This document shows positions 27,267 to 63,500 of a stretch of DNA of 64,000 nucleotides, piece by piece (within the stretch, counting starts at the first letter, position 1; every line of letters starts with the position of its first letter). A model generated the notes under the pieces. It was not told the origin of the DNA and ran no database searches. It was given only the letters and a program-made list of their open reading frames with translations. The DNA comes from Chloranthus sessilifolius. Its lineage: Eukaryota > Streptophyta > Magnoliopsida > Chloranthales > Chloranthaceae. A program made the translations under genes and the position numbers. Location of the stretch: contig CM037593.1 in the NCBI GenBank assembly GCA_021018995.1, positions 3,376,088 through 3,440,087 of the forward strand, in the 5' to 3' direction.

Positions 27267-30200
27267 CTTTTTAAGGAAAATTTTATATTTTTTCATCAGA
27301 AATTAAGAAAGAATGTAAGTAGTGCTGTCAATGGGTCGGGTCGGCCCCATACCTGACTTGACCAGATTTTTTACCGGGTCAAGTACATAAATTTGACATG
27401 TCAGGTCGGGCATGAGACATCCGACCTGACCTTCGGGTGGGGTCCGGGTCGGGTATTTGCTGGTTCGGGACCCAACCCGAGAATATGTATGTACAAAAAT
27501 ACAAAAAATATGGGTTTTTTTATCAGGTGGGGTCAGGTTCTTGAGTCGGGCATTGGGTCGGGTCGAGTGCACCATCAGGTCACGTTGAGTCGGGTCAGGC
27601 ATTTGCAATTTTCTTATTGGGCAGCCAAATTTTTTACCCGACCCAACCTGTTGGCAGTCCTTAAATGTAAGTCCCCATGTACCGGAGTATTGATAAATTG
27701 AAAATTTGAAAACAGGTAAAGCACAAAGACAATTATTCAAATGAAGTTATACACAGAGCAAAATAACTTCTAGTCCAGGAAAAACTGGTTTGATGTTAAC
27801 AACCCTGGGCAATGATGATTAGTGACTTAGAAAATTAGGAAATGAGTTTTAAATTGTGAACTGAATGGAGTGGGTAAGAACATTAAGGGAAAAAATATTT
27901 TCACATAAAAATATTCAGAAAAGTGCAATTTTGTGGACCAAGAAGGAGCCAATCATACAAAACTATAATCAATGCACGTCATTAATAGATAAAAAGAATT
28001 ATAGAAGTGATGGTCATACCCATTTTCCCATTACTGCATGGTCAAATAAGTGCTAAAGAATTCTAGAAAAACTGACCTTTGAAAAAGTACTTGCAAGATC
28101 ATCAATATCAGATAAAAACCCTGAACCTTCACCCTGCAAATAGAGCGCACACCCTACGTTCAAAATGATGGATCGTGTCCTTATGAAAGAATTGCATGCC
28201 TAGTATCAGCTAATAACAGAGAAGCAGTTGGAAATAAGATACACTAAGTTACATTTACTTTGGTTTTCATGAATAAAAAAAAAAATCGGTATATAGACTA
28301 GACAACATAATTCATGATACTATGCATGGTATCAAAATTCAGCTGATACTGATACTATTGGTTTCGTCGATAACCGACACCGATACAGGTATCGGGGTAG
28401 GATCAGTATCAGTATCGGACTGATACACGTCAGTATCAGCCGATACTGTCTCGATATCGGCCAATACTGACGGATAAATGCTTTTTTTTTTCAATAAAAA
28501 TAAAAATAAAGGATTGACTGATACGGTATCGGCAATAACGTATCTGTATCGGCCGATACGTATTGGTCCAAGATGAACCGATACCTGATACCCAGTTTGA
28601 TAAATCATGATACTATGAAAACTTCAAAACTGGAACTAAGTAATATCCAGGGGCTAACGACTCAGAAACATTTCTTAGGAATATAACTAAACAAGCCTCA
28701 TTTCACAGAAACTCAGTGTCTTTTTGTTTTATCAGTAACTCCAGTGTCCAATTTATCTCAGTTTAGCAATGAGTAAACAAATATTTCCAATAATTTTAAA
28801 ATTCTGCTACAGACAGTTTCAAAAAATGTAAGGCGCACACTAAATCATGACAAAAAATTCCAATCCAGCCTACACTTGCAAACCATCACCCTGCCTCCCA
28901 AAGAACAAGTAGGAGCAATGTTTTACGCACTTGCGGAAGTAAAAAAATATCTTAGGCTTAAAGATTTATTTTAGAATGTAAAAAACATTTCATAGGAATG
29001 ACACTATACAGACCTCATTCCACAGAAAGTTGGTGACTGTTTTTTTAATCGGTAACTCAAGTGTAAAAAATTTCTCAGTTCATGCAGTGAGAAAATAAGA
29101 TTTCCAGTTATTTTAAAATTTTGCTACAGGTAGTTTCAAAAAAGTGTGTAAGACGCATACACTGAATCATAACAAATAATTCCAATTCAGCTTATAATTT
29201 CTAGCCATCACACACCCTCACAAAGAACATGTAGAAGCAATGTTTTACACTCTTCCTGAAGGAGAAAATAAATTATGATCTAAGATTTGTTTTACAATGT
29301 AACAGAAACTACAAAAAAGAAGAGAAAGATAAAGAATTCACCAGCCACCCAACATTGGCCAAACAAAAAGGGTAAAAACTAAATGCCAATAAAAAAGTAA
29401 TAATAATAGTAATAGTAAGGAAAAAGGTTGTGTGCCCCAACGTTATATAGTGACTGTTGCCCCAATAGTCCACGTGGCACCCAAAACCTGTTTTGGTGCC
29501 ACGGGGACCAAGGTTGGGTGGTTTAGATCTAAAAAAAGTTCAAAAACTCATCTCCACCGTGTTTTAATTTTAGCCTTGAAATTTGGGCCATTTAAATCAG
29601 TCAATATTTGCCTTTTATCTTTAAAAAAAAATTGATCTACACGATACACTTCAGTTCCATGTGGACTTCAGTTCCATGTGGCACCAAAACTGTGTTTTAG
29701 GTACCACACGGATGTTGTTATATGGTTAGTATTGTTGTCAAATGGCTCAATTTCGCTTAAGCGATTTGGCTCAATTTCGCTTAAACGAATCGCTTAATCG
29801 CTTAAGCCATAGCGTACTTTTTTCTTTTTCTTTTTCAAAAAAAATTAAAAAATTAAAAATTAATAAAAATAAATTAACAATAAGTATTCAAGTCTCTAGA
29901 AGGAAAAAATAATCATTCTTGCATTTAAAAAGAAGTTTTACATACTAATATTCAAAATTATAACTTTAATTTTGATACTGAGTACCAGCATCGTCTACTT
30001 TAGGTCGTTGATGGTGTAGATCTATCATCTTCATAATCATCTTCCATATAGCCTTCTAAAAGAACATCTTGATCATGTTTTTTTCTAGAACCCTTGTCCA
30101 TATACTCCATTATTTCCTTTCGAATTTCCGGAATAGCTTCTCTACAAGCCCTAGCATTTGATCCGGCTCCATAAGCAAGATGTTGTTTATGACAATTTAA

Positions 30201-33200
30201 TATAACTAAGTTAATAACAATTTAATTCACTACAAAAAGGATTACAAAGCATAAAATAAATAATAATAATAAATTAGACAGGAAAGATGGGAGGAGATTG
30301 GGAGTAAAGAATGGAGATTCGAGAGAAAGTTAAAGCCAAAATAGTTGTGTGAGGAGTAGAGGACCCAACCCACCATTTTATACAGGCAATGGGACCTCAA
30401 AAAGCAAAAAAAAAAAAAAAATTAAGCGTTTGGAGTATTATGTCATGGCATACTAATGATGCGATCGCATAAGCCATCATGGCTTATGCGAATTGATGGC
30501 ATAAAACCGCTTAAGCGATCGCTTATGACAACTATCGATTACCGTATAACATTGGGGCTCGGTTTTCAGATGTGTATCGCTATCGTCCAAGATTTAGGCC
30601 ATGCTTCTAATAATAATGATAACAATAATAACAACAACTATATAAATAATAGAGAAATTAATTTGTGCAAAACCAAAATCAAATTTATTGTCATAGGAGA
30701 TACATGAACAATGAGATAACAATAAATTCATAGCAATAGACTTATAACATGATATAAGGATCTAAGGTTCGGTTGTCCTCAACTCAAGTCAGTAAAATAG
30801 ATGTAACCCCCACCCTCATGGTCATACTTCAGGTAGAACTGGTGAAATAAATAGTTGTCAGCAGCCACATAAAAATTGTTTCCAACCATAAGAAAGCAAA
30901 ATGTCATCATTCCAACTTACCAACAATAAAGGAAACATAAAGGAAACAACTGAAGTTGTTTTTCAGTTGTAGATATAGGAAACATAAAATATATAAATAT
31001 TAAATAAACAAAAAAAGACACATGTGAAATAGATTTACACTTGAATTTCAACCATAACGAGATGGGACCTTCAAAGATGAATGTAAAGAAAACTAGAGAA
31101 TCTAAAGGAAGAAAGATTAAACAAATGGAAACTTGGTGGTGGAATGAACAGGTAACTTGTCTAACTATGTGCGGAGAGACGAGTGACTTCCCTATTGGAG
31201 TTGGGCTGCATCAAGAGTCTGCCTTGAGCCCTTATTTGCTTGCCTAGAGCATGTATGCGTTAGCCATAGATATACAAGAAGAGATTCCACGGTACATGTT
31301 ATTTGTGGATGATGCGGTACTCATAGCCCAAACAAGGAATCAAATAAATGATAAGTTGGGACTATGAAACAGGTCTTCGAATCAAGAGGTTTGAAAATTA
31401 ACAGAACAAATACGAAATACATTGAGTGCCAATTTATGATAGCCTGGATGAGAATTTAGTTTAAATAAAAAACAATCTAGTGTCACATTGACATAGATTT
31501 CGCTATTTAGGCTCTACTTTACAATTAGATCACGGACTTGAAGATGATGTCTCAAATAGGGTTAATGAAGGGTGGATGAAATGGAGACAAGAAAGCGAAG
31601 TATTGTGCAATCCAAGAATTCTACTTCAATTGAAGGGATATTTTTATCAGATGGAGGTAAGACCTGCCATACTCTATGGCGCAGAATGTTGCGCTACGAG
31701 GAAGAAACAAGAAGACATAGTACATGTGGCTAAGTTGTGTATGCTAAGATGGATGTGTAGTGAAACAAGGAAGGATAAGATTAGAAACGAGTACATTAGA
31801 AGAGATTTTGATGGTAGAACCTATGGAGGTCAAAATTTTGAATTGTTGGTTAAGGTGGTTGGGACATGTCTATCAAAGACCACAAGCAGACCTTATATGA
31901 AGGCTTAAGACACTACAACACAAGAAAGTAAGAGAAGAGGCCACTGATGACTTGGAGGGAAGCAGTAAGAACGGACATGAAAGATTGTAATGTTGTAGAG
32001 AGCTTAAGAATAATTAGATATGAGTGGAGAAATAGGACTCGCAAAGCCAACCCCAAATAGATGGGATAAGGCAATGATGATGGTGATGGTGATGGTGATG
32101 GTGATCCCGAACAACTTATGCAATTAAACATTCCATCTAGAAAATTCAAAAAAAAAATGTCGCAAAACTGCAAAAAATGATTTGCTAAAACCTCAAAATG
32201 CACAAAGAATTGATTGGTTTCAGCCAACAAGTCACTTTCAAGAAGAAAAAGAATAAGAAAGAAAATTAAGCCAGTCTACTCAAAATGAACATAGGAACGA
32301 CACAAAGATGAATTCATGAAAATTTTATGCAATTAAACTGATTCCATCTAGCAAATTCAAAAAAAAAAAAGATATCACAAAACTCCAAAAAAATGATTTG
32401 CTAAAATCTCAAAACGCATAAAGAATTGATTGACTTCAGCCAACGAGACTTTCAAGCAGAAAAAAGAAAAACAACGAAAATCAAACAGTCTATTCAAAAT
32501 GAACATAGGAATAATACAAAGATAAATTCATAGCATTAAATCAGTATATGGGGGACAAAAATTCATGTGTGATTCAGTGTTGGGAAGAAAATATCAAAAG
32601 AAAATTACAAATATGAATCACAATCTGAGTAAACTTGTCCGGGCATAATCTTTGAGGTAAAAAAAAATGTCACCTCTTCCCTATCCCCGTGAAAAGAGTT
32701 ATATTCGTCATTATCAACCCCAACTGATTGAGTGTCTTCTTCTTCCTCTTCTAATCCCCCCAATTCAACTTCCTCCAATAGAGCCTTACCAAAGAATGCA
32801 TATTGGGAAGCATCAAAAAGGGCATTTTCTGAGATGACAACATAAAAAACAGTAAGTCATAGCACAGAATAAAAATTTCTCAGACTTATATTTTCATCCT
32901 CATAATTGGAAATGAGGCATAGAGAGAAAGGGTGATTCCTGCTTGTTGCTAAGGATCCACACCACGAATAAAATAATATAAATTCATTCACAAATTATGG
33001 TAGATAGATAAATTAGTACAAGAGAAAATAAATAAGCCCTACTGCATTAACACTTCACAAAATGGAAAAAATTATATCCTATTTTAGACCAGCTAAAAAC
33101 AATGTAACCCGATAAATTAACAAACAACGGAATAAAACGTAGATTGACCCCAAGTGTCACCGCTGGCACCAGGGTCTGGTGCCTAATACCAGCTCTTAAA

Positions 33201-34595
33201 AGAGTGGCATCACAATATGTACCAGCCACCCAGCAGTCTGATACATATCATGCAATCTAATGCGGAACTTTAAAATGATTAAAAGATCAAGAAAAACAAT
33301 AACTCTGTGTGTGTGTGGATATATACATATATATATATACACTGCAAATTATAAAAATTAAAATCCATGCAGCATGTACATGTTCACACCACACATACAC
33401 ATGAATTGGGGCATTAGCAGTTATGAGTACCATACTGTTAGGCATAAAAACTGGTTAACACCAGCCAGGCCAGGTGACGCTAAAAACTATGCAGCAGAAA
33501 CATGAAAACATTTCTTAAATACATTTTTTGCTCCAATCAACATCTCTAATATTTATGATGCACAAGGAAAAACAATCAATGGGCAGTTTCGGCGCACTCT
33601 CTCTTTGGCTGAGGATGCTAGTATAAAGGATTGATGAGGAGCATTAAACAATCAGCTGCACTAATCTACCGTGACCCTTCTGGACTCATTTCTTCTCCTT
33701 GTAGCTGCTTCCAGTCTCATTGGCTAAATAGCTCATTTAGCTTCTTCCTGTACCTGTTCTCACTGTTACAAGTGTTCATATATTTTTATTGCTAATAAAA
33801 CAAATGTTCAGCTATTTAGTTTCATAGCTGACACGCCAAATAGGGGGACGAAAGGATTCGCTCGGGGACCAGAGGGTTGCAGAGTCCTTACGATGTCTTC
33901 GTCACCAGCATCGATAGAAATTAATAACATAAATGCAACGTCCGTGTATCAAAAAATTACATAAAACAAGCATTACTCAGGGGAGCTGAGCTGGGTTCCC
34001 ATCTGTAGGAAATGCATGGGAAATCCACACAGCAAAACGAGGCCGAGTTAGTGACCCATATAATAGGCCATCATTTCGCTTTGGTTCAGACAATAAAAAG
34101 CTTTGATGGCAAGCCTAAATCCAATTAGCTCTAAATCTCAACCAAATTAGGCCAAATGAACCCTAAATCTCGATCATACACATTATAATTCCACAATTCC
34201 TCTAACAATACAATACAAAACAAAACAACAGGTAATCAGCTCAAATAAAAATAATAATAATAACAAAAATCCACCTCTAACAAATCATACAACACAGATG
34301 CCTAAAAAAAACAGTAATCCAACTTTTTCATTAAACGAACTCAATCAAACAGTAACTTCACAAACCAAATAAACAAATAAAAATAAAATACATTACACAC
34401 CAAATCAGGGAACTAAAACTAGAGCTAGAATTAGCCTTTTTCGCAGATTAAAGAAATAAATAAAATAAAAAAGAAACAAAGATCAAGAGATAAACACCGA
34501 GATCGAAGCGCACCAGAGGAAACACAACCAGTGAATTGATGATCGGGATAAGGGTATTGTTGAGTATGATCACTCAAACCCTCAAACCCGTCCAT
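19968..34595 (-). CDS. PAT1: Protein PAT1 homologue, mRNA decapping activator (5 exons)
   Basis: Deduced coding exons on the minus strand: 34595-34514, 32828-32674, 28133-28077, 27099-27030 and 22009-19968. Phases agree and give 801 aa. The N-terminus carries [14 protein letters not shown] (about 29-42) and [13 protein letters not shown], the conserved plant PAT1 head. Exons 3-4 encode [14 protein letters not shown] and [16 protein letters not shown]. The last exon has a Pro/His/Ser-rich linker, then [13 protein letters not shown] and [16 protein letters not shown], and the helical C-terminal PAT1 domain (about 520-800). The family bridges Dhh1/RH-type helicase, the LSM1-7 ring and decapping enzymes in P bodies to trigger 5'-3' mRNA decay. 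The exon 1 donor G|GTGCGC is the least certain junction; an upstream G|GTTGTG has the same phase. Introns of 5.0, 1.0, 4.5 and 1.7 kb are full of transposon remnants. Confidence 0.9.
23390..24000 (-). mobile_element. LINE zf-RVT fragment in PAT1 intron 4
   Basis: The minus strand reads [18 protein letters not shown] near 23700-23770, matching the WxIWxERN block that follows LINE reverse transcriptase. Frames are broken. The strand is the same as PAT1. Confidence 0.5.
24150..26420 (+). mobile_element. Degenerate LINE pieces in PAT1 intron 4
   Basis: Around 24190-24410 the plus strand, with frameshifts, reads [10 protein letters not shown] and [12 protein letters not shown]. Around 25640-25850 it reads [20 protein letters not shown] and LICKV, a reverse transcriptase segment. 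Around 25980-26090 [21 protein letters not shown] follows. The order (3' part, SINE, 5' part) shows at least two damaged copies. The segment 24750-24990 looks like a LINE 3' end. Many stops; inactive. Confidence 0.6.
25115..25200 (+). mobile_element. tRNA-derived SINE
   Basis: TAGCCCATGG at 25124-25133 fits a pol III A box and GGTTCAATCC at 25163-25172 a B box, followed by CTTACCTGTC and an A-rich tail AAAAATAAATAAAG. It lies between LINE pieces and is similar to the fragment at 9903-9970. Confidence 0.55.
27235..27265 (+). repeat. (AT)n microsatellite
   Basis: AT run in PAT1 intron 3, about 50 bp from the hAT MITE at 27320. Confidence 0.9.
27320..27663. mobile_element. GGGTCGGG-family hAT MITE with perfect 8-bp target duplication
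   Basis: AATGTAAG flanks the element at 27312-27319 and 27664-27671. Ends: TAGTGCTGTCAATGGGTCGG on the left, TAAGGACTGCCAACAGGTTG as reverse complement of the right. The interior is packed with GGGTCGGG/CCCGACCC motifs on both strands. The 8-bp duplication and end type fit the hAT superfamily. It sits in PAT1 intron 3 and has no coding capacity. Confidence 0.88.
28325..28609. mobile_element. TATCGG-family hAT MITE with perfect 8-bp target duplication
   Basis: ATACTATG flanks it at 28317-28324 and 28610-28617. The left end is CATGGTATCAAAATTC; the right end, reversed, is CATGATTTATCAAAC. The interior consists of GATACGTATCGG, TATCGGCCGATAC and TATCAGTATCGG repeats. It lies in PAT1 intron 2. 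Confidence 0.88.
28664..29265. repeat. Tandem duplication of about 320 bp in PAT1 intron 2
   Basis: Copy 1 (28664-28942) and copy 2 (28983-29265) share, in order, TTTCTTAGGAAT/TTTCATAGGAAT, CCTCATTYCACAGAAA, TCTCAGTT, CAGTTTCAAAAA/TAGTTTCAAAAA and GCAATGTTTTACRC. They have diverged by substitutions and small indels. Function unknown; probably old intron duplication. Confidence 0.75.
29729..30535. mobile_element. hAT-derived element with CGCTTAAGCG ends and a transposase scrap
   Basis: The ends share GTTGTCA(T/A)A followed by clusters of GCTTAAGCGATCGC-like palindromes at 29745-29815 and 30420-30535. Between them the minus strand (30200-30010) reads [20 protein letters not shown] and [20 protein letters not shown]. 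This resembles the region after the BED zinc finger in plant hAT transposases. The rest of the transposase is missing. Confidence 0.6.
30010..30200 (-). pseudogene. hAT transposase (BED-finger flank) fragment
   Basis: About 60 codons without a stop: [26 protein letters not shown], then an acidic stretch [16 protein letters not shown]. The text matches the linker between the BED zinc finger and the catalytic part of plant hAT proteins. No start codon, no catalytic region and no evidence of expression. Confidence 0.5.
31040..32105 (+). mobile_element. Degenerate LINE reverse transcriptase, 3' part, in PAT1 intron 2
   Basis: Pieces in several plus-strand frames read [18 protein letters not shown] (31190), [15 protein letters not shown] (31298-31342), [12 protein letters not shown] (31573), [12 protein letters not shown] and [19 protein letters not shown] (to 31806). 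This is the conserved plant reverse-transcriptase order; the catalytic box reads FVDD in place of FADD. It ends with CCAACCCCAAATAGATGGGA and a TGATGG microsatellite at 32078-32105. A shorter copy lies at 50880-51410. Confidence 0.75.
32117..32540. repeat. Tandem duplication of about 212 bp next to the LINE end
   Basis: Copy 1 (about 32117-32310) and copy 2 (about 32330-32540) share CAATTAAAC, TTCCATCTAG, AAATGATTTGCTAAAA, AAGAATTGATTG, TTCAGCCAAC and AAAATGAACATAGGAA. It lies in PAT1 intron 2 between the LINE and exon 2. Confidence 0.75.
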
Positions 34596-34599
34596 TTAT

Positions 34600-34617
34600 C
34601 TCTCTCTCTCTCTCTCC
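34600..34617 (-). repeat. (GA)n tract in the PAT1 leader
   Basis: A GA run immediately upstream of the ATG on the minus strand (CT on plus), comparable to the CT tract in the HSP70-17 leader. Confidence 0.85.
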
Positions 34618-34653
34618 TCTTTCTCTCACTACGATAAAACCTAGATTTGAACG

Positions 34654-34694: not shown

Positions 34695-34699
34695 GAAGC

Positions 34700-35040: not shown

Positions 35041-35043
35041 GTC

Positions 35044-35235
35044 ATGGTTCAAATTTTCGGTCCAAAATGATCACTCCAATTTTTTTGTGGAAATTGCTGA
35101 AGTTGCAAATTATCGGCCGATAATTTGCACGAAACCTAAATTTTAGCCAATATTTTACTTCTTCAGAAAAAAAAAAATCGGTCAAAATTTCAGTTTCGGC
35201 AAAGATCAAAACAAAAACCGAAATTTTGATCCTTG
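35044..35235. mobile_element. TTTCGG-family hAT MITE
   Basis: Ends ATGGTTCAAATTTTCGG and, reversed, CAAGGATCAAAATTTCGG. The flanks GCTGGGTC (35036-35043) and GTTGGGTC (35236-35243) match at 7 of 8. The interior has AAATTTTAGCC, TTTCAGTTTCGG and a single ATCGGCCGAT. Same family as 49514, 50492 and 54838. Confidence 0.7.
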
Positions 35236-35880: not shown

Positions 35881-36469
35881 CAATGTTTTGAAAATTGAAC
35901 CGGTCCGGCTCCAATTTTAGCGGTTCAACCACTGTTTGACCAGTAAACAAACCGCATTGATCAAGGTTCTTTGACCGGTCAACTATGCGAAACCGTAATT
36001 CAAGTGTTTTCGGGGGCGGTTCACGATTCGACCGCGATTCTTGCGGTCGGACTAGTTTCTACTATATTTTATTATTATTAAATTATATAATATTTATTTT
36101 TTAAGGTTTATAACTTATATTTTATAGTATGATATTCATACTTATTCTTATAAAATATAAATGTATTATATTTATCAATTTGTTTTTTATAATTAATAAT
36201 ATTTTATAAGTTTATGAATTCCGAATTTCACATGTACGAGCAGTTTAATGGTGGTTTGATCCGATCGAACCGTTCCAATCGCGCGGTTCGAGCCCTTGAT
36301 CCACTGACAACCGCGCTGGTCCACACGTCTCGCAGTTCAATTGGCTATTTTAACAGTTTAGACCGCTTTTCGAATTCAACCGCGGTTTTTACGAACCCGA
36401 ATCGCTTGAACTCATGGTTCCAGTCAAACCATGGTTCAATTGCGGTTTCAGCCCGATTTCAAAACACTG
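35881..36469. mobile_element. AACCGG-family hAT MITE with 8-bp target duplication
   Basis: The flanks GATTATAC (35873-35880) and GATTATAT (36470-36477) match at 7 of 8. Left end CAATGTTTTGAAAATTGAAC; right end reversed CAGTGTTTTGAAATCGGGC. The interior is rich in GAACCGGTC, CGGTTC and ACCGCG motifs on both strands. It includes a stretch of AT-rich unique sequence at 36060-36210. Confidence 0.85.
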
Positions 36470-40727: not shown

Positions 40728-41696
40728 TGCGTTTGGGTTAGCTCTTTCAGGGCAAAGAGCAACTCTTTTTGTTCTTTAACTTTGATAAAGAACTGCCCAC
40801 CACACACCAAAAAAAAAACACACTCAAGCATGTGATTTGCATTTTTGAGGGGGTAAATAATATATTATGGTGCATATATATATTCATGTAGAAATACTTT
40901 TTCATCAAGTGGTCGCAATCGGATCAGTATAAAATAGACAATGTTAGATCAATCGTCCTCGCAGATTTCATAAAATACATATTTCATCATCTGCTCAACA
41001 GATGTCAAATGTCATAATAATGAACTACTAAAATATATATTATTTTTAATATAATCATTTATTTTTATAGTCACAAAAATCGCTAAAGTTTTTTTAGATA
41101 TTTAAGAATAATTCGAAACTTATTGAATTTTATTGGATTTTAACCTCGTCGAATTATTATCGAACCCCGACTTGGTAGGGATGCAAGTTAGGTGTACCGA
41201 ACGGAGCAGAACCCAAATTTTTTAGTGTACAGTTCGGTACACCGCAAGCCGAAAATGAACCGAAAGCCATTTTAAGAAAGAGATGTATTTTTTCAATGAC
41301 ATCTTAAGTATGATCAATCATGAGGTGGTAGCATTTGATTGATCGTACTTCCAATAGTTACAAAATGTCTCCATGTCCATAAATATGGTCGGTTACCTGA
41401 CACGTGTTATATTTCTTTATTTTTGTTTGGTTAGATTTCCATATCGGTCAAAGTGAATTGTAGACGTGAGAGAGGTCAACTTTAGCGTGTAATTGTTGCC
41501 TTAAAAGAAGAATCAAATCAGATAGGGCACGTTGATTTCGCACTAAGATCTAAATATTACGTGTAATATCTCCATTTTATCATAAAAAATATATTTTTTT
41601 CTCGTAATGTTCATTTATTGCCGTTAAAATTTACACCAATTACCTTATATTCTCGGTCTTAAAAGGTGTCTCAATTAAAATTAAATGGGTACCTTT

Positions 41697-42329: not shown

Positions 42330-43071
42330 GGATTTTTTGCAAATACCCCCCTATGTTATGCTTAAATTGTATAAAATTTTCTGAGTTATGCCTATTTATA
42401 TTTGCCCCCCAATTTTTATGTTTCCTTTATAAATACTCCTTGCCTGTTAAATGACAATTAACTAGACGCCATTTTTTTAATTAAATGACTTGTTTACCCT
42501 TATTTAATATTATATAAAAAATGGCTATTATATTTTTCTTAACTTTGACTGCATTTTAAGCAGTGGATAAGTATCGGATCTTGCTCAAATTTTTTGGGTG
42601 GAACATGATTAATCTCCTATAAGTTGCCGTGTTACCTGATTTTCGATTTGAATGTCTATGACGCTCGCGTGACTCGTGAGTAGCGCTATAATGCTACTCC
42701 CATTTGTACCATCTCGACCCTACCGTCGTTATGAACCAACTGAGTATCATAGACACCCAAATAAAAAATCAGGTAATACGACAATTTAGAAAAGATCAAT
42801 CATGTTCCACCCAAAAAACTTGGTTAGGATCTAATGCTTATCCACCGTTTAAAATGCAGTCAAAGTTGAAAAAATATAATGGTCATTTTGTATATAATAT
42901 TAAGGTTAAATACGTAATTTAATTAAAGAAATGACTCCTACTTAACTGCCATTTAACGGTAGGGGGTATTTGTAAAGGAAATATAAAAATAGGGGGTGCA
43001 GCGTAAATAGACATAACTCAGGAGGTTTTATGCAATTTCAGCATATATAGGGGGGTATTTGCAAAAAACCT
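42330..43071. mobile_element. Foldback element with arms of over 300 bp
   Basis: The left end GGATTTTTTGCAAATACCCC and the reversed right end GGTTTTTTGCAAATACCCCC begin arms that stay complementary nearly to the centre near 42700. For example, CATGATTAATCTCC pairs with GATCAATCATG, and CTTTGACTGCATTTTAA with TTAAAATGCAGTCAAAG. The flanks TTTATTCTA (42321-42329) and TTTATTATA (43072-43080) match at 8 of 9, allowing one base of uncertainty at the right end. Nine-base duplication plus long arms suggests Mutator-like. Confidence 0.8.
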
Positions 43072-45278: not shown

Positions 45279-45405
45279 TGGGGTGGAAAGTTCGGTTAAT
45301 CGAACTCAAAACATTTTGATTATGGTTCGATTTTAGGTGAACCGACATCGAAATCGAAATTTTCAATTTTGATTTTGGTTCGGCTCACCGAACTTCCACC
45401 CCTAC
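45279..45405. mobile_element. Small GGGGTGGAAGTTCGG inverted-repeat MITE
   Basis: CATGGGGTGGAAAGTTCGGT on the left is inverted at the right end (reversed: TGTAGGGGTGGAAGTTCGGT). The interior has GGTTCGATT and GAACCGAAAT-like motifs. No clear target duplication. Confidence 0.5.
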
Positions 45406-46499: not shown

Positions 46500-46710
46500 C
46501 AAGGTATGAAAATCGGCCGATACTGATACGTATTAGTTTTTAGCCAAACCAATATGTATCGGTATCGCTGATACGTCTCGGTTTCAATCAAGACTTTTAC
46601 TTTTTATTTTTTAAAATTTTTTTAAGTGGCCGATACATATCGGTATCGGCCGATTCGCATCGGCCTCGGGCAAATCAATATCTAAGATCGATATATATTT
46701 TAATACCTTG
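46500..46710. mobile_element. TATCGG-family hAT MITE with 8-bp target duplication
   Basis: The flanks CTCCTCAC (46492-46499) and CTCCTCCC (46711-46718) match at 7 of 8. Ends CAAGGTATGAAAATCGG and, reversed, CAAGGTATTAAAATATA. The interior has TATCGGTATCGGCCGATTC. A second decayed piece ending TTTTGATACCTTG lies at 46895-46985. Confidence 0.8.
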
Positions 46711-47614
46711 CTCCTCCCCTTCCATCTAAGATAAAGCCCTCACTTTTAAATTATATTGTGCCACATAGGACATAATTCTTACAAATCAAAGTTGTTTAAG
46801 TGGCAGAACGTTCTATGATCTCTGTACAACTCATGAAATGTGCTCGTTAGAGGATACCTCCCTATTTCAATCGAGATTTTAATTTAGTTATATTTTTTTA
46901 ATTGGCTGATACGTATCAATATCGGCCGATTCGTATCAGCCTTGGCAAATTGATGCCCGAGATCAATACAGGTTTTGATACCTTGGTTTGAAGTGGGAAT
47001 AATTTTTTGAATGGATGATTTTCTATGATATTTAGCCACTCGGATATGTTGAATTGACATAAAAAAGTCCTCCATATCGAGGAAAAGGAGGGTGGCGGAT
47101 TTAAATGAGAGGTTTTCAAATAAAGAAAAATGGCATATGGGTTTAATCGCGTGGATAAACTCATGCATTCGAACACCCAGATAGCGTGCCACGTGGCATG
47201 AAATGTGAAAATGACACCCATTTTGGGATATGTGGCATTTGATCTATCAAAAAATTAGTCTTTTTTGTGATCAAAACTTTGATCAAAGTATGAGTATCTC
47301 CTCAAACATTTTAGTGCATTAAATTTTTTTTTTCTTCTTTTGACTATATTTTGGACGGTAAATATCCATCATTTTAAAAGTCATTTTTAGATGGATCTGA
47401 TCGTCTTTGGGCAAGTTACCATAATACCCCATCCCTTAAATGGGTGCACATATATCCTGGGGCATCTTTCAAATAATATACTTACTTGAAAAGAAGAGAT
47501 TTTCAAATGAATTTGGTGATGACATGGAAGGCAAACTTCTTCTTCTAATTTTTTTTGGGTGTGTGTCACCTATATGTCGGGGGAAGGAAAATGTGATCTT
47601 GGTGTCCACCTAAA

Positions 47615-48190
47615 CTTGGCTTGACTCGACCCGACCCGACCCGACCTGATTAGCAACAAACTCAAGAGTTGGGTAGGGTTATGATATAAAGTAGGGAGTC
47701 TCGTCTGGACCATAGTCACAAAATCGGTTCAACAATAGTTCGGCGAGGTTTAAATTCGGAAAAATCCGGAAAATCCGGAAAATTCGGGGAAATATTCATA
47801 GGAAAAATCGGTGAGAAAAATTTAAAAATGAAATAAAAAGATTTAAAATTTAAAATATTAAAAAAATTAGTTTGTCACAATTTTTAGAAAAATTCGAGAA
47901 TTATTAGAGTATAATTTGCAAATTATTCACGATTTTTTGTGATAAGGCGAATTTTCTAAAAATTCGCAGATAATTTAGGATTAATTCGGGGGACCTTAAA
48001 TTCGTTAATTATTCGCAAAATTTTCAAAAATTCGGTGATTTTTGTGACTCTGGTCTAGACGGGTTTGGCTCATGGGTTCTTGACCTAGAAACTCATGACC
48101 GAATGCAACCCATTTAATAAATGGATGAGATTTTCAACCCGTAGGGCCCGGCCCGATCCATTGGGCCAACCCGACCCATAGGAGCTCTAA
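47615..48190. mobile_element. GGGTCGGG-type MITE split by a CATAGTCAC MITE
   Basis: CTCGACCCGACCCGACCCGA at 47624 and CCCGATCCATTGGGCC with CCCGACCC near 48150-48180 frame the inserted element at 47711-48052. Outer ends are not resolved. Confidence 0.5.
47711..48052. mobile_element. CATAGTCAC-family hAT MITE with 8-bp target duplication
   Basis: Starts CATAGTCACAAAATCGG and ends GATTTTTGTGACTCTG. The flanks GTCTGGAC (47703-47710) and GTCTAGAC (48053-48060) match at 7 of 8. The interior repeats AAATTCG, AATCCGG and ATTCGCAAA-like motifs. Confidence 0.8.
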
Positions 48191-49479: not shown

Positions 49480-49965
49480 CAAGGTATCAAGCTAAGTATC
49501 GAAGGATACGGATCACGGATCAAAATTTTGGTTTTTGTTTCGGTTTCGGAAGGGACCGAAACTGAAATTTTGGACCAAAATTTCAAACCCATACATTTTA
49601 TGACCGAAATTTCGGTCCCAAATTATGGTTTCAGCGGAGACCGAAATTTCGGTCATTTCGGGCGAAATTTTGATCCTTGATATAGATATATATCGGTATT
49701 TTGGCCAACTAATATTGATACTGGTATCGGTATCGGTCTATACTGCACAGTATCGGTCGACACGTATCGGGTATATCGGCCGATACCTACCAAATTTAAA
49801 TTTTTTTAAAAATCTATTGTTTTATTAAAAAAACATATAATAGTTTAAATATAAGTCTTTTATGAGTTTAAGATTATAAAGTCTATAAAACTTTTCAAAA
49901 AACTTTTTTCCAGAAAAAAGATGAAAATTATTTCACCTGCAAACTGATACCGATTTGATACCATG
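49480..49965. mobile_element. TATCGG-family hAT MITE with perfect 8-bp target duplication, carrying another MITE
   Basis: CTCAGGAT flanks it at 49472-49479 and 49966-49973. Starts CAAGGTATCAAGC, ends GATTTGATACCATG. The interior has GGTATCGGTATCGG and TATCGGCCGATACC. A TTTCGG-family MITE sits at 49514-49679. Confidence 0.88.
49514..49679. mobile_element. TTTCGG-family hAT MITE nested in a TATCGG MITE
   Basis: Starts CACGGATCAAAATTTTGG and ends GAAATTTTGATCCTTG. The flanks ATACGGAT and ATATAGAT match at 6 of 8. The interior repeats GACCGAAATTTCGGTC. Confidence 0.7.
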
Positions 49966-50491: not shown

Positions 50492-50637
50492 CAAGGATCA
50501 AAATAGCGGTTTCATTTTCGGTTTCAAGCATGACTGAAACTGAAATTTCGGTCGAAAATTTCCCTTCCATATATATTTTGACCAAAATTTCGTTTTAGTG
50601 GGGACCAAAATGTTATCGGCCAAAATTTTGAACCATG
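50492..50637. mobile_element. TTTCGG-family hAT MITE
   Basis: Starts CAAGGATCAAAATAGCGG and ends AAAATTTTGAACCATG. The flanks GTTGGTAT (50484-50491) and GGTGGTAT (50638-50645) match at 7 of 8. Confidence 0.78.
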
Positions 50638-54626: not shown

Positions 54627-54684
54627 TCACAAAAAGCAGAAGACCGAAATAAATGGCTGGCAAGAAATCTTATAGCAACCAAAG

Positions 54685-55249
54685 CATAGTCACAAAGTCG
54701 GGAGTCGGCAATAAATCGGCAAGGGACTAGGGAATTCAATGTCTGTCAAAGTTGTAAAAAATCAGGGAAAATAAAAGGTATATCATGATATATTTCAAGT
54801 TAAAAAAAATAGTTTTAATGAACAAAATAGTGGAAAACAAGGATAAAAATTTCGGCCGAAATGACCGAAATTTCGGTTTCGGTCCCCACCGAATCCAAAA
54901 CAAAATCTGAAGTTTTTGGGTATTTTGTATGTACTTCAAAATTTCGGCCAAAATTTCGGATTTTGGTTTCGGTCCCCACCGAAACGAAATCCGAAATTTT
55001 GATCCTTGGTGCAAAATATGCAAAACCTAAAGGTTTTTAAGCACAAACTGAACAAAATAGTACAAAACTTAGAGGCTTTTTCCCCCTGAAGTATAAATGA
55101 GAAAAAAATTAAAAGAAATCGGACCACATCACAAACATCGCCAATTAATCGGCCGAGTAATCAGGGATAAAGTCGGGATGAGTCGGGTGGCTGCAAGTCG
55201 TCGACTTTTTTCTGATTTTTTTAAAAAGTCAGAGATTTTTGTGTCTATG
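54685..55249. mobile_element. CATAGTCAC-family hAT MITE containing a TTTCGG MITE
   Basis: Starts CATAGTCACAAAGTCGGGAG and ends GATTTTTGTGTCTATG. The flanks AACCAAAG (54677-54684) and AATCCAAG (55250-55257) match at 6 of 8. It is interrupted at 54838-55008. Confidence 0.75.
54838..55008. mobile_element. TTTCGG-family hAT MITE nested in a CATAGTCAC MITE
   Basis: Starts CAAGGATAAAAATTTCGG and ends CGAAATTTTGATCCTTG. The flanks GTGGAAAA (54830-54837) and GTGCAAAA (55009-55016) match at 7 of 8. The interior has GACCGAAATTTCGGTTTCGG. Confidence 0.82.
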
Positions 55250-55420: not shown

Positions 55421-57552
55421 ATGGCCCTACTCAGTAGCATCTCCCAGTTCAATCTTCTATCTTCTCATAACAATATAAAATCCAAACCAGTTCAGAAATA
55501 CTACCAAATCATAGAGGAGATATTGAAGCTGTTGAGGCCTGTATATGATGAAGTTGTCAGATCTGAGATAGTTTCAGATGAACAGCTTGAAAAGGCATTG
55601 GATGATCTGGATGCTGCGGTCAATGAGGCTATGGAACTTATGGAAAGCTGCCACCAGATGATGAGTAGAATTTATTTTGTACGTCACTTGATCCATATTT
55701 TCCGTTAAATTTTATGTATCGTAGGCATAGTAGGTTGTAAGGCTGCAAATTGGTTGAGAAAGGTCGAGTTCAACCCGATTACAGTCTACCTCATTCTGAA
55801 CCCGATCTAAACTGATTATTTCAGGCTTCAATGTAAATCCGATTCGACCCTATTGGCAAAATTTGGATCGGGTCGGGTTGGGACAAGTTGGTTAGGATAT
55901 AAAGGAGTTGGGTCAGGGTCGGGTCAAGAGCCCAGGACCAAACACAACCCGTTGAACGGGTTGAGATTTCTAATCTGACCCAACTCGATGGGTTGGATTT
56001 TTGTACCTAAATCAACCAGTGGGCAATTGGGTTGCTCGACCTGTTGGTCAATCCGACCCATTTGCAGCCTTTGCTGGTTGTCACCAAATATCCAACTCTT
56101 ATGTGATTTATGATATCTAATTGGTTGTATCATTGCTGGAGTTCTGTTTATCCAAACTGATTGCTTGCGTTTTTGTAAAAAACTTTCCAACATGAAAAAA
56201 CACACTTGGAACTAACTATTGCATTTTACTTTATATCAGCTGCAGTATATCATAACTGAGCAAGGGTGGTCGGGACTTTAGAAATACAAAGATAAACTTA
56301 GAAAGAAACTTCTTATTGACAATGTGTTTGTTGTACACTAGATCATTATAAAAGGTGGCATATTCGCGAAAGCAATGCAACATGAATTGCACTACATGAA
56401 TTAGTCAAATCGCTAAGATGATGTCATGATGCTTCTATAAGTGTCTACTGATGAGCTCAATGAGATCACATCATGTTGTTAGTAATGATTGAGAATGCGG
56501 TCAACGATCATGTAAAAGAGGTGATGATTGGTGGTAGATTCTCTTGAGATTGAAACGATTGTTAAGTGCTCTGTACGCTGTTTAGGAGGTTGGGTTTTGT
56601 GCTTTTTTTTTCTTTTTTTTTTTCTCGTGTGGTTTAAGGGCACTATAGTCGCTACTCGTCTGTTTATTTGATGTGATCTTGTGTGTAATCCCCTGCATGA
56701 CTGTGTTGTGCTTGTTGCTTTAGCTAATCTGTTTCTCTGTTCCAGGTTCTGTTTTTGAGGTTTATCTCCCTTTCACAGCTTTGGGTTTGTTCCTATGTAG
56801 CATAGTCACAAAGTCGGGAGTCGGCAAGAAAAATCGGTCAAAGTTGGAAAAAATTGAGGAAAGTAAGAAAAAATATAAAAATATATCATAATATGTTTCA
56901 TGTTAGAAATAATGGTAATTAACAAAATAATACAAAATAGGCAAAACTTAAAGGTTTTTTATGAACAAACTGAGTAATATAGTACAAAACCTAACGGTTT
57001 TTTCCCCCTTAAGTAAGTATAAATGGAAAAAAAAGAAAAAAAGAAAACGAACAAAAGAAAAAAATCGGATCACATCACAAACATTGACAAGTAATTGGCC
57101 GAGGCGCGACTTGGCTGATTATTCGGCGATGAAGTTGGGATGACTGCAAGTCGCTGACTATTTTCGATTTTTTGAAAAAGCCAGACTTTTAATATATGTC
57201 TTGAAAGTGCTTAACTTGTGGACACTTGTGGCAAGGGTTAAGTTGTTAAGGAGGGAATTGTCTTATATATGCGTCCACATTTAATATTGTTGGGCATATT
57301 TGGGTTTGAACTCCCTACCTTATCATTGCTGTGTCCACTCTTAAGGCCATGCTTGAATACCCCGTTTCTGCTCGGAAACTGACTTCAGCTTAGATAGTGG
57401 CCATTCCTGAGCTTTTCAGAGGGTTTCCTATGTTCGGCTGCCGCAGTGGGTCCCACGCAGATTCCGACGAAAGCTGAGTTTTGATGCACTTTCGGTTTCC
57501 AAGTTATTTGCTCGGGAATGCTCGGAAACTGAGCAATAACCTCTGGTGAGCT

Positions 57553-57587
<35 letters not shown>

Positions 57588-60500
57588 GTAGCTATTCTGA
57601 ATTTTTACTCCTCTGGTTCACCGGTTGGAGGAAGAAGAAACCAACAAGAAGTGATCTCTCTCTCTCTCTCTCTCTCTCTCCCTCTCTCTCCTTCCTTGGG
57701 GTTTTCCTCCTCTCTGGTTCACCGGTTGGAGGAAGAAGACACTGATTTCAATTTTAGAAGTGACCTTAAGTAATTTGGGTAAAGGGAGTAAGCAGCTAAC
57801 TTTAGTAAATAAATAATGTGTTTTACATAAAGGTTGTGAGTGGGGCTTGGGTGTGCAACAACCTCATGGTACACGGTGAGGTCTCATTTGCTCTTGATCC
57901 GATTAGGATGGATGCATACGATCCAAGCCGCACACAGTGTCAGATTCAAATAGATATACTTCTTAGCATACCAAAAATTAATGGGGCCTAAATGTGGCTT
58001 TTAATCAAGGTGTCAAAATCGGTATCAGACTCGAGTATCAGTCCATGGAGGTTCGATACGACTCGGCCGTTACGTAAGGGACGATACCGATACGTATCGG
58101 CCTATTTAAAAAAAATAAAAAAAAATAAAGAAAATAAAGGTATCGGCCGATACCCAGATGACAGTGTGTGGGTCGATCTCCTTTCGCCAAAATTGACTAA
58201 CATTTATCATATATGTATCGGTTAAATCCGACCCGGTACAATGTTGCCCATTTCGGTATTGAACCGAAATGATATTTAAAAGATTTTTTTGCACAATTGT
58301 ACCAACAGAAGTGTTCAATCTCCCATGGATCGTGCATCGGCCAAAAATAACCTTCAAATAGATACGACACAGTACAGAAGTGTTCAATCTCCCATGGATC
58401 GTGCATCGGCCAAAAATAACCTTCAAATAGATACGACACCGGCATTCCTACGGTCATACGATGTCCCTTAAGTAGACTGATTCTATGCTTTTCTAACATA
58501 ATTAAAAGAACACGAAATCCTTCGTTTCTGTGAAATGCTAGGAATTAGAGCTTTTCTGAGGCCTAAAAGAACACACCTGGGGAAAGCCAGGAATCTGAGT
58601 TGGCCAAGAATCTGCAGGAAACTGAGTTGTCAGGAATCAGAGCTTTATGAGATAACTGGGGAAATACCCGAACATGGCCTAAGTTTCTTGATTTCTTCTC
58701 CTTGTTTCAAACTAATTTTTTGTAATTATTTCACTTGAATGCCATTCATTTGTTCGTTTACACTAACTCAAGGTTTCAATGCACGAAATTGGTATTCCAA
58801 GTAGACATGCTGTGATTTTTATTAGAACTTGGTTAACTTTTTAAAATTTCTACGAAATTGGCAGTTGGTTATCCAAACTAGCTTTACTCACTCAGCCAAT
58901 TGTTTTGAACCAATTACCAATAGAGTTGTGAATGGGCTGGGTTAGACCAGATATGGGTGATTTTTAATCAGTCTTAAAAGGTTGGGTTAGTAAAGGAGGG
59001 TATTCCTTCAAACTGACCCTGTGAAGCCCTCCTCTGCTTTGATTTATTCTATTTCTAGGCTGGTCCTCGCCCCCGTTTCACTGTGTTAAGTAACCTGGCC
59101 GGATGGTCACCTTATTCCATTCCTTTCTTTCATAGGCCATAGTCCCTCCGACATTGAATCTATCGAATCATCTCACAAGTTATAGAATCAAAGATCATGG
59201 TCTCACTCTACATCAGTTCGATAACCTCATCTTTCTACCCAACCATGGGTTTCTTATGGTTAGTTGTACATTGATTCTTAAATTGACCCAATTGATAATA
59301 ATCTCAATAATACTACAATATTTTATGTGCTGTAGTAGACTGTAAAGATTCCGTAGTAAATCATAATCATAGAAACAAAAGCCTACTAATAATGATAAAA
59401 ATCTGATTGCCTACTTATCAAGTTTCAGCCATTTGTATACCTGTAGACTGAAAGAGTAATCAACAGCTAACAACTAGCAAGAACCAACTTACAAATTAAA
59501 TAAACAAAAATTAAAACAAGTACGCCATTTTATTTTGAAAATGTACTGGTATGGAATCTTTGGATATTAGGGGCAGCCATAGTTCAACAATGATCGAATC
59601 TAAAGATGATTTGATCATATTAAAAGTGTTTTTTTTTTGTTGAAATTTTTTGAGAAACCAATTTGATCCAATTTCACTTGAATCGATCTAAAAAAGATGG
59701 ACAAAATATGATTCTTAAGAGAGTGGCCTTTTCCTAAGTAGTCATTCATCGCACAGACCTTTACCCCTAAAAATGATTTTTAAGGGTCTAAGGATGATAC
59801 TTGATGAGAGTTTTTATCATTAATTCCTAAAAATGGAATTTGAATTTTTTTTGTAGAACTGAGTGGCAATTGTAATCCCCTCTAAGTATTGTTCCTAGCG
59901 GTCCTAGGCAGCCTGCCTGGCTGCTCTTCTAGAACCTAACATCTCTGCTTATGCCGCTAAAGGTAAGCTAAGCGTAAGCTAGCTGCGCCTGGATCCCCTC
60001 CATTAATATTTTTTATGTAACCACCAAACAAATTATATAATATATAGTCCTACTCTATACTGAAATCTAAATCTAGTTTAAGTAATTAAAAAAAGCACCT
60101 AATACGAACTAATAAAAACCAAGGCCTATCCTCCCTACTTTATTAGCACTTCTCATGTCGCATACTTTACTAACATGTAATACTAATAAAAAGAAAGACC
60201 TATTTTTTATGGTCATCTCGCGTCGCGTTGATAATGAAATATTTTTGGCTTATAATTGTGTATTTTGTGAGATGCTGTTGAGTGTGAAGACTTGCGTTGT
60301 GCTTGAATTGCAATGTCATGCACCTTTATTTGAGAGTTGAGACACAAGTTAGCTAGCCACCTGCAAAGGGGGTGCATCTCGACATGACCGCCATGCTCTC
60401 ATAGTCACAAAGTTGGAAGTTGCCAATAAATCGACAAGAGTCTGAGTTGTCAAAAATCGGTCAAAGTTAGAAAAAATCGGGGACAATTAAAAATATATCA

Positions 60501-63500
60501 TAATATATTTCAAGTTGAAAATAATGGTTTTAAGGAACAAAACAATACAAAATAGGCAAACCTAAAGGTTTTTTCCCCCTTAAGTATAAACAAGAAAATA
60601 GGAAAAAAATTTGGACCACATCACAAACATTGCCAATTAATCCACTGAGTCCCGACTTGACCGATTAATCAGCGATAAAGTTGGGATAATCGGCGATAAA
60701 GTCGGGATGACTGCAAGTTGCCGACTTTTTCATATTTTTTGAAAAAACCGGAGACTTTTGTGACTATGCATGCTCGTGCAATGCCTTGATGCCATCACAA
60801 CAAGGCCAGCCTAACTGACCAGCAACTCTAATACCACCCGCTTGGAGGAGTTCCCGTCCCATCGTTACCTTCTTTGCGGACTACCATCTTGCTGCACCTG
60901 TTGCCCATGCTCGCTCCTCTATCTCGTGCTTGGTCAGTTCATGCTTCGCTTCATGCCTTATGCTTATGCATCTTTACTTCACATACAATAATAGCATGTC
61001 AGCTCGTCACACCGTCCCATTCCATCATTTCCTGCTCACATAACAAGCCCATCGTTTTGTGTGGGCTCTCCCAACCGACCCGCCTTACATATTGGTACCT
61101 CGTGCTAATGTGCACCATAGTGTCCCACGTAGCCTACAAGTGCCTCCCTGATATCCATCTTAGCCGCATCACATCTTTCTGCAAGTGTTTTTGGCTCCCA
61201 AATATCCAACTGACCAATTAATTCTTTATAACGTACTCTATTTTTTTTGACAAATAAGCCAGCAGTCGTTGACGTTTTCCCAGAATTCTCCGCAGGCCTC
61301 TTTGAGATAAATGGTCTTTTCTGTGTAATTCCAAATGTGAAGTAAATCTCCATATCTTATTAGTGAAATTGAATACTTGAAATTGAACGGATCCCTTATT
61401 TTCTTCTAGGTACACGTTTGACTCTGACATGGCCCCACCCATATACGCCATGCTTAGCTCTGTGATCTAGCAACCTCCCTCGGGTGACGCAATGCAGTGC
61501 TCTCTAAGCACCATCCTAAGCCCACCCTTACGGGCCTAAGAGACCATCAACGCTCCCTCTAGCATGCAAAGAGGCTTGTGGCTCCCCTTTACATATATGG
61601 TTAAAGAACGAACACTAATCTCAAACATATACTCTTGACATATGCAACCATGCGAGGCTATATAGATTATGCGTCCCCCCACCAACACCCTCTTGTGTTC
61701 CACGTCCAAGCATCTAGCTCCCACATTACGGCCAACGCCCCACACACTAGCTGCTTGCTAGCCCCCTACTTGGCCCAAGTATTCCAAAAAATTGCTGATT
61801 TTGGCAACTATGCATGGGACACATTTATAGTCGAGCACTTTCCAAGCCTGTGAGACCTATAAAGTTAACCAAGCCAGCCAGGGGCTCAGTCTCAAATCCC
61901 GTTGGGCCAACTTGGCCTTTTTTCTCAATGAATTCACCTCATATATGTCCCAAACCATGTCAAACTTATAATTTGGGTCATTTATTCAACTGGAAGGATT
62001 GAACGTGGCCCGAGCCCAAGATTTTCAAAATCTTCACTTTAAGTCAAACATCAAAGTAGATGTATTAATTTTTATGTTAAAAATCATTATTTATCCTTCA
62101 CTTGCAAGTGTCATTGAATCGTGCAATTAACGATCCAATAATGAAACTCACCATTCAGTATCAAAACGATCCACTTGTGCGATTGGATTGGTTTCCTAAC
62201 GATTCGATTTTCATCATACGGCAACATTTGGCCTCAATCAATTATATATTGAATGAAGGCATCATTATAGTGGACCTTATGGTCATCTATCCATTCACTT
62301 TTTTGAATGCATTTATCTTCTTTTGACGATAAATATGCCTTTTGGTTCTCTTCTTTACTCTCCTGTGCTTTTTTTTCTTTCTGGATAAATAGAACTGCTG
62401 ATATTTTTATGTCCTTGATTTGGGATATAATTTGATACATAAGAGCACAAACTCTACTAGCTTGAAGGCCCAGTTTAAGTGCATTGCATTTTACTTGCAT
62501 CATTATATGTTGGCAGGAGAGAAAGATCATTTTTTTCTTTGATGCACGTAATACTGCCTTGTTTGGCAACACTCCCACCCCACTGATTCCGGCTTCTGGA
62601 TTTCGGGAACCGAAAAAATCATAAAAAAACCAACCACACAGTAGCAACTAGCATTTGGTAAGCCAGATTCTAAACCAGATTCCTGGAAAAAATACCCGTG
62701 AACATCTTTTGTAGGAATCTGTTTCAAGTGAAAAAGGGGTGGTCTGGATTCCGCTTTTACGGGAATCAGTTTAATTGAAACCAACCTCGTGGGAGCATTG
62801 CCAAACAGGGCCGTAACTTTACTCCAAAGAACCCTGTTAGCTTCTTCCAAATTTGTAACCATGTTAAAAGTTTCATGTTCAAGTGAGACTGTGATGCAAG
62901 GTATCTAACTCGGGATCAGTATCAGGTATTGGTCCATGGAGGACCGATACGGAATTTTATGTTATTTTAAAGAGGTGAAACAACTGAAGAAAAAAACAAA
63001 TCAAGGGGATATCGGTTGATACCCGATCTGTATGGACCGATACCAGATACTGATATGACCCTGATACTGGTATCGGGGTGGTATTGGTATCGGTTTCCAG
63101 TGAAATTGATGCATAGCGCTGATACTTATCGGTAACGGCCGAGTTTTGATACCATAATTGCAGCATTATTACGGGAAGCCAATTTTTTAGTTCGCAGCGT
63201 GGTTTTCTGATGAGGTAACAATTGACATATGTGCAGGTTTTCCAAGTGGAGTCATTAATCACAAAGATACAGACATCTGGACTAGTGACTTGCCGACGGA
63301 TGAGTTCCTTCCTTCATTCTCTTACTGTTGATTCAAATTTATTATCATGTATCGAGGTAACGTAAACCCTTTCAAAGTAATAACCTTTTTATTCTCTCTT
63401 TCTCTCATCAATTAATTACATTTCGACTGAAAAATAGACATCATTACGGCTCAATGAAATTTTTTAGAGTACCTTTAAACACACCCATCGAATCTTTGAG

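Follow-up and report, generated by a model that had tools for sequence, protein, structure and literature searches.

Miniature inverted-repeat elements with family-specific CGG-centred words, and CGG arrays beside hAT transposase genes, in Chloranthus sessilifolius

The window considered here, a stretch of 64,000 nucleotides of Chloranthus sessilifolius DNA (contig CM037593.1; C10:3376088-3440087 of a genome of 2.17 Gb), holds short elements that have inverted ends and 8-bp target duplications and belong to at least five families. The families are designated A to E, and each has a leading CGG-containing hexamer, or word. GGTCGG leads in A1; the B elements have TATCGG and the C elements TTTCGG; family D has AGTCGG or AATCGG, with ATTCGG in D4; and E1 has GCGGTT. 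The word recurs within elements and follows the terminal repeat, both among the window elements and at the 3' ends of hAT transposase genes elsewhere in the genome. The original prediction, made from the letters of the window alone, described several families of hAT-type miniature inverted-repeat transposable elements (MITEs), each with an interior filled by one short motif and each expanded by the multiplication of binding sites.

Elements of the window

Twelve elements (A1, A2, B1, B3, B5, C1, C2, C3, D1, D3, D4 and E1) have inverted ends and a flanking 8-bp duplication matching at 6-8 of 8 positions. They are about 146-589 bp long, and their terminal 12 bp match at 10-12 positions in nine of the twelve (ten if D1 is included, taking its ends as 54685-55249), namely A2, B3, B5, C1, C2, C3, D1, D3, D4 and E1; the ungapped match is weaker in A1 (5/12) and B1 (7/12). 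The ends of families B, C, D and E are CAAGGTATC, CAAGGATC, CATAGTCAC and CARTGTTTTGAAA. Six further pieces (B2f, B4f, B6f, B7f, C4 and D2f) were bounded by eye around motif clusters and are weaker evidence. A scan that made no use of motifs recovered five of the twelve elements (35881-36469, 46500-46710, 47711-48052, 50492-50637 and 60400-60768); an unfiltered scan for ends and duplications was swamped by AT repeats.

In the following list, p refers to the commonest CGG-containing hexamer of a piece, compared with 300 dinucleotide-preserving shuffles and uncorrected for the 18 tests; its floor of 0.003 is too coarse for correction across them. A strand is given where one is assigned.

27320..27663, + strand: A1, hAT-type MITE with the word GGTCGGG; duplication AATGTAAG (8/8); GGTCGG in 7 copies, p=0.003; genome-wide relatives
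28325..28609: B1, TATCGG element; duplication ATACTATG (8/8); TATCGG in 9 copies, p=0.003
35044..35234: C4, TTTCGG element with ends set by eye; TTTCGG in 3 copies, p=0.010; duplication search negative
35881..36469: E1, element with CARTGTTTTGAAA ends and the word GCGGTT; duplication 7/8; GCGGTT in 8 copies, p=0.003
41176..41270 (extent approximate), + strand: F2, left-end fragment TAGGGATGCAAG with TTCGG words; 12-bp end identical to that of the hAT stretch L119
43147..43390: B2f, TATCGG element with unclear ends; TATCGG in 8 copies, p=0.003
45281..45404: F1, fragment bearing TCGGTT words and GGGGTGGAA-type ends; TCGGTT 5 times in one 300-bp window; duplication search negative
46500..46710: B3, TATCGG element; duplication CTCCTCAC/CTCCTCCC; in the motif-free scan; p=0.003
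46860..46986: B4f, right part of a TATCGG element; 77% like B3 across 110 bp; word unenriched, p=0.176
47711..48052: D4, CATAGTCACAAAATCGG element with the word ATTCGG; duplication 7/8; p=0.037
49480..49965: B5, TATCGG element hosting the nested C1; duplication CTCAGGAT (8/8); TATCGG in 7 copies, p=0.003
49514..49679: C1, TTTCGG element inside B5; duplication 6/8; TTTCGG in 8 copies, p=0.003
50492..50637: C2, degenerate TTTCGG-family element; duplication 7/8; word unenriched, p=0.336
54685..55249: D1, CATAGTCACAAAGTCGG element hosting the nested C3; duplication 6/8; AGTCGG in 4 copies, p=0.003
54838..55008: C3, TTTCGG element inside D1; duplication 7/8; TTTCGG in 10 copies, p=0.003
55738..56072: A2, element with AAGGCTGCAAA ends and the word TCGGGT; duplication 6/8; p=0.003
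56803..57190: D2f, copy of the D family with unclear right end; 71% like D1 across 401 bp; word unenriched, p=0.565
58007..58272: B6f, TATCGG element with ends set by eye; TATCGG in 5 copies, p=0.003; duplication search negative
60400..60768: D3, CATAGTCACAAA element; duplication CATGCTCT/CATGCTCG; in the motif-free scan; p=0.007; tandem 21-bp unit containing a site at 60666-60708
62897..63155: B7f, TATCGG element with ends set by eye; TATCGG in 6 copies, p=0.003; duplication search negative

The two open reading frames at A1 have no Pfam match. A Pfam search of 20 of the 33 frames of at least 110 aa in the window found no hAT domain; the matches were to HSP70, zf-RVT, a PPR-type domain and PUB2_N, with weak lesser ones. 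The PPR protein, which has an E motif, and the PUB2-like domain suggest a flowering plant.

Enrichment of the words

The top CGG hexamer is enriched (p<=0.037) in 15 of the 18 elements or fragments, with dinucleotides preserved, and reaches the floor of p=0.003 in 12. Of the 12 elements delimited by their ends and duplication, 11 show enrichment. By itself the CGG trinucleotide is scarcely above expectation when dinucleotides are preserved; the longer word is what stands out. A CGG hexamer occurs at least four times in 32 of the 66 300-bp windows that overlap families A to E, versus 8 of 572 elsewhere, and by our reading six of those eight are the edge of B2 or additional hAT-like pieces. Two control repeats are unenriched (42344-43057, p=0.87; 62554-62816, p=0.455). 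The first of these has TACCCCCCTAT ends and an exact 8-bp duplication TTTGCAAA and carries no CGG word; the second is element-like, with TTTGGCAA-type ends, GATTCC five times in place of CGG and an unclear duplication.

The three bases that precede CGG have a likeness of 0.78 within terminal-repeat families versus 0.14 between them (18 pieces, permutation p=0.0002), the within-family value being inflated by homology because D1, D2 and D3 can be aligned for most of their length, B elements only patchwise. ATCGGC and TCGGCC are slightly ahead of TATCGG in B3, and TCGGGT and CGGGTT are ahead in A2. The predicted words held for four families (GGTCGG, TATCGG, TTTCGG and, as a sparse array, the AGTCGG/AATCGG of family D) and failed for the fifth: AACCGG, proposed for 35881-36469, occurs there once, and the dominant word is GCGGTT/AACCGC, with 8 copies. 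The proposal that families differ in the first bases of a shared site describes the words that vary 5' of CGG, and does not describe the GCGGTT family or the hAT genes with TCGGGC, which vary 3' of it.

The commonest variants of the words at one mismatch are, in the window, products of CpG transition: TATCAG (22) and TATTGG (7) versus 41 TATCGG, with TATCGA also at 7, and TTTTGG (11) and TTTCAG (5) versus 23 TTTCGG. Interior parts of the terminal repeats (GTATCA in B, AGTCAC in D) also seem to resemble the words of their families, a resemblance noticed post hoc.

Genomic copies and target duplications

In a first look at the genome, candidates numbered 1904 for A, where the query had 1001 bases, 1422 for B, and 1922 for C. 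Forty candidates were scored for each family; genomic matches number at least 42 for A, 46 for B and 42 for C, and 26, 29 and 29 further copies, respectively, were examined. These families are short, non-coding and present in many copies, as MITEs are. The specificity of the words was kept in the collected copies: per kb, B copies hold 34.7 TATCGG, 2.1 TTTCGG and 0 GGTCGG; C copies hold 36.3 TTTCGG, 0.6 TATCGG and 0 GGTCGG; and A copies hold 21.7 GGTCGG, 2.7 TATCGG and 0.6 TTTCGG. In flanking DNA, other such elements included, the densities per kb are 1.13 for TATCGG, 0.85 for TTTCGG and 0.48 for GGTCGG. The family's own word is present at least three times in almost every copy (25 of 26 in A, 29 of 29 in B, 28 of 29 in C). 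This is partly built in, since motif-rich sequences served as queries for the similarity search; that the words of the other families are almost absent is not built in.

In the genomic C copies the most frequent variants are TTTCAG (82) and TTTTGG (73). In B copies TCTCGG (38) and AATCGG (34) are on par with TATTGG (39) and TATCAG (37), so CpG decay is not the sole source of variants.

The length of the target duplication was measured with ends fixed by the terminal repeat alone, because a free search for the best duplication matched random places too often (at family A ends, 13 of 26 at 7/8 or better, and likewise 46 of 200 random places). The fixed-end test was usable in 14 of 26 A, 13 of 29 B and 16 of 29 C copies. 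Flank identity at a length of exactly 8 is 0.80 in A, 0.88 in B and 0.98 in C, versus 0.17-0.44 at other lengths from 3 to 14. The 16 C copies are not all independent, since 11 different left target words account for all of them, with GTTGTGAT (or the complementary word) recurrent. Many C copies (among L050-L079) have the target word GTTGTGAT or ATCACAAC in common and may therefore have been copied within a larger repeat. For D and E, duplications come from window copies only (6-7/8 in D1, D3 and D4; 7/8 in E1). A wider scan for ends and duplications in 271,522 bases gave 111 matches at length 8, 73 at 7 and 26 at 9, many of which overlap or fall in known arrays.

In the flanks of the MITEs, 10 of 36 frames of at least 120 aa were searched for pieces of transposase, and one zf-RVT match alone was found.

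Within copies of families A to C, the sites (a median of 6-7.5 per copy) lie in two subterminal blocks with a depleted centre. Per tenth of element length, they number 21, 20, 25, 22, 8, 7, 35, 20, 30 and 6 in B and 19, 27, 18, 23, 4, 3, 26, 23, 33 and 2 in C; the distribution in A is flatter. Orientation is mixed. Tail-to-tail neighbours in B are separated by 8 bp in 30 of 46 cases and form a quasi-palindrome, a count inflated by homologous copies. Clustered subterminal sites were thus correctly anticipated, and an interior filled by the motif was not found.

CGG arrays beside hAT transposase genes

The same genome contains many genes with a hAT dimerisation domain. A search for this domain gave 4130 candidates, 150 of which were scored, those listed all lying above the curated cut-off, and about 1.2 kb downstream was fetched for 47 of the 150. 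These genes are the best matches to one domain model and may favour one clade. In 30 of the first 40 downstream stretches the top CGG hexamer exceeds all 40 shuffles, with a slight bias toward the real sequence, which was scanned in finer steps than the shuffles. Among the last seven stretches, for which no shuffles were made, L146 and L147 have TCGGTT 6 and 7 times, L143 has ACTCGG 4 times, and the others have counts of 2 or 3.

A recognisable TAGGG-type end is present in 26 of the first 40 stretches (L100 left out). Tag1 of Arabidopsis has ends of the same type, like family A of the window and these hAT ends. The word agrees with the terminal-repeat group in 25 of the 26 (permutation p=5e-5), with the groups named after the ends were seen and their members related. 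The groups are as follows:

TAGGGCTGTCAA-like ends (n=15): TCGGGC in 14, CCGGGT in one
TAGGGCTGYAAC ends (n=6): GCTCGG in 6
TAGGGCTCTCAA ends (n=4): CCGGGT in all 4, each at a low count (1-4)
TAGGGATGCAAG ends (n=1): TTCGGT

There looks to be a fifth group with TCGGTT words: L132 and L146 have CCGAATACACCCCTA at the end, and decayed forms of it are seen in L133 and L147. The predicted coupling of word to terminal repeat is therefore seen in both hAT genes and MITEs.

Two complete hAT elements, with hAT dimerisation and RNase-H domains between inverted ends and an 8-bp duplication, were found. The element at C4:105725899-105730664 is flanked by CCTAAAAT (8/8), and its left end is 2/12 off TAGGGCTGTCAA. 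The element at C8:116113485-116118084 is flanked by ACTGCAAA (8/8), has TAGGGCTGCAAC at both ends, and carries GCTCGG 7 times in its first 300 bp and 8 times in its last 300 bp. For a third element, on C9, a left end was looked for and not found. The C4 and C9 genes encode both a BED finger and hAT RNase-H domains, and the C8 gene the RNase-H domain only.

Family A is tied to hAT genes by the 12-bp terminal repeat and the TCGGG core, and the fragment at 41176 by its 12-bp terminal repeat. The proposed matching of families to hAT genes by their ends gave this short tie for A; B, C, D and E have no partner among the 47 stretches. One stretch, L100 (G000:C6:47027900-47029600), has a family-A MITE within the hAT transposase gene, flanked by ATTACAAC/TTTACAAC (7/8).

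Interpretation

The families of the window are probably non-autonomous hAT elements, and their CGG words subterminal sites of transposases that share their ends and their version of the CGG site. For the TAGGG-type ends, hAT origin and a putative binding-site role are well supported, because hAT genes of this genome end in CGG arrays beside TAGGG-type repeats, the groups differ in word, and two complete elements were found. The predicted hAT-type origin of the MITEs agrees also with the length-8 duplications of A, B and C. The mobilising transposase would contact the words through its BED zinc finger, one multimer using several of its fingers to hold several sites, and each family would be addressed by the transposase lineage that has the same ends and the same version of the site. 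The CA-type families (TATCGG, TTTCGG, AGTCGG and GCGGTT) may have as yet unseen transposases of the same kind. We infer such binding from Ac, Tag1, Herves and the measured motifs of hAT-19 type; a recognition code read by the transposases is a good hypothesis rather than a result.

Precedents exist for this scheme. In maize Ac/Ds, which shares with the present families the 8-bp duplication type, the Ac transposase binds clustered subterminal CGG-containing hexamers, AAACGG (excerpt of PMC3260210). Several copies of one short word likewise lie inside the ends of A, B and C; the Ac word itself, however, is nearly absent (0.1, 0.2 and 0.0 per kb, respectively). Arabidopsis Tag1 resembles them in having repeated subterminal words read by an N-terminal zinc finger, yet its words, TGACCC and AAACCC, lack CGG, and Herves binds C(G/A)ATTCAT, so CGG is not general to hATs (excerpt of PMC3143072). 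In Hermes, several BED fingers of a multimer act on several subterminal repeats, and two BED domains bind quasi-palindromic repeats (portion of PMC10368747) to which the 8-bp tail-to-tail pairs of family B are comparable. Animal CGG-binding proteins and hAT-19 transposases have BED and Hermes DNA-binding domains; most of their measured motifs contain CGG and differ by protein, and the hAT-19 type motifs match subterminal regions. Unlike the present case, these are from animals and fungi and are mostly domesticated proteins, with no plant MITE families among them (PMC8097297, as excerpted). No published account of a CGG theme across plant hAT MITE families was found, a weak negative in that subscription journals lay mostly outside the coverage. 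The maize hAT system Bg/rbg is reported to have TATCGGC repeated in its end regions, and family B would then have the same word; the motif was not found in the papers searched.

The finding is already known in kind, given Ac, Tag1 and the CGG-binding hAT proteins; the interesting part is the set of CGG words within one genome. It is ordinary in kind and unusually clear in degree, since several MITE families and hAT gene groups in one genome each have their own CGG word. It bears on how co-resident hAT transposases distinguish their own elements from others. Because the genome has many hAT genes and MITE copies with differing CGG-centred words, the specificity of finger for word is directly measurable, and the subterminal word could serve to pair orphan MITE families with transposases. 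A broader scheme, put forward tentatively and with some doubt, is that many hAT lineages in one genome keep an invariant CGG contact while the flanking bases give every transposase lineage, with its captive MITEs, an address of its own; as all sites contain a CpG, the addresses could double as methylation switches for binding.

Several observations weigh against the main reading. Copies within a family are homologous rather than independent, and the own word is partly built in by the queries. At least three TATCGG occur in 3 of 26 A copies, and C2, B4f and D2f lack enrichment of their top word against shuffles. Ten of the 40 hAT stretches (L103, L106, L107, L109, L112, L115, L118, L124, L135 and L136) are not above shuffles, and two that are, L100 and L130, owe this by our reading to inserted MITEs. 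L143, outside the 26, has the exact end of family A and a top word of ACTCGG (4 copies), a misfit. Ties between window MITEs and transposases never exceed 12 bp of terminal repeat: A1 has only that repeat and the TCGGG core in common with hAT ends, A carries TCGGGT where the hATs with its terminal repeat carry TCGGGC, and the sole longer match to A is the copy inside the L100 gene. The CA-type families B, C, D and E lack a transposase partner in the stretches fetched.

Some of these points suit an alternative that appears unlikely, though worth serious weight, in which the sites are real transposase sites without a code. The flanks of CGG would then be neutral lineage markers, and transposases would move families that have the core and similar ends alone in common. 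The mismatch of TCGGGT and TCGGGC beside an identical terminal repeat, the similarity of TAGGG-type repeats across word groups, and the homology of all copies within a family favor such markers. However, the words are near-exclusive between families and agree with 25 of 26 hAT ends, and the non-CpG bases of the motif agree with the query more than other non-CpG bases do (0.96 vs 0.78 in B, 0.90 vs 0.83 in C and 0.86 vs 0.75 in A), although alignment freedom at repeated words may contribute to this difference.

The arrangement of sites bears on whether the arrays are instead functionless products of replication slippage or short tandem duplication, which is improbable. Tandem repeats do exist: same-direction neighbours in A stand 5 bp from each other in 27 of 85 cases (tandem GGGTC), D4 has a 19-bp tandem at 47752-47793, and D3 has its 21-bp unit with a site twice (60666-60708), where D1 and D2 have it once. 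Yet the sites of A, B and C face either way with about equal frequency, their spacings vary, and they form two subterminal blocks. Like arrays of CGG words also stand beside hAT transposase genes of several groups. The duplication in D3 is the one clear case of local multiplication, and the proposed expansion of families through multiplied sites stays a conjecture.

It is more improbable still that the arrays serve the host or stem from hairpin formation (fold-back DNA, small RNAs, methylation) and not from transposase binding. As single strands, B3 (z=-4.5), C3 (z=-7.0) and D3 (z=-3.0) fold better than shuffles, and each site has a CpG and decays to CpG-transition products. However, inverted copies of one word account for strong folding, and the same kind of array is found at the hAT genes' own ends. 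Stable folding is reportedly a feature of hATpin MITEs, which are MITE-like hAT elements of plants.

That the arrays reflect chance, base composition or the reader's selection of motif-rich stretches is barely credible: although six fragments were bounded by eye and the queries used to collect genomic copies were rich in the motifs, enrichment over dinucleotide shuffles is seen in 11 of the 12 elements that ends and duplication define, arrays stand beside hAT domains picked by protein match alone, and for families A, B and C chance or composition is ruled out by the shuffles and the control elements.

Further observations

Searches of bacterial and viral collections with three short patterns gave 3, 6 and 2 matches, taken as chance. 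In the window, TCGGG-rich pieces that flank D4 (47600-48190) resemble a family-A element split by D4. Adjoining B6f, at 58305-58439, is a perfect 69-bp tandem duplication containing CATCGG.

Besides any CGG array, L113, L119 and L145 have a stretch rich in ACTATA/TATAGT located 200-525 bp downstream of the hAT domain, with 9-15 copies per 250 bp. Elements whose ends resemble CATAGTGACAAA, close to the CATAGTCACAAA of D, also occur in L023:2271-2606, L036:221-549 and L130 (about 300-566); those in L036 and L130 carry TTTCGG words and possibly represent an additional family.

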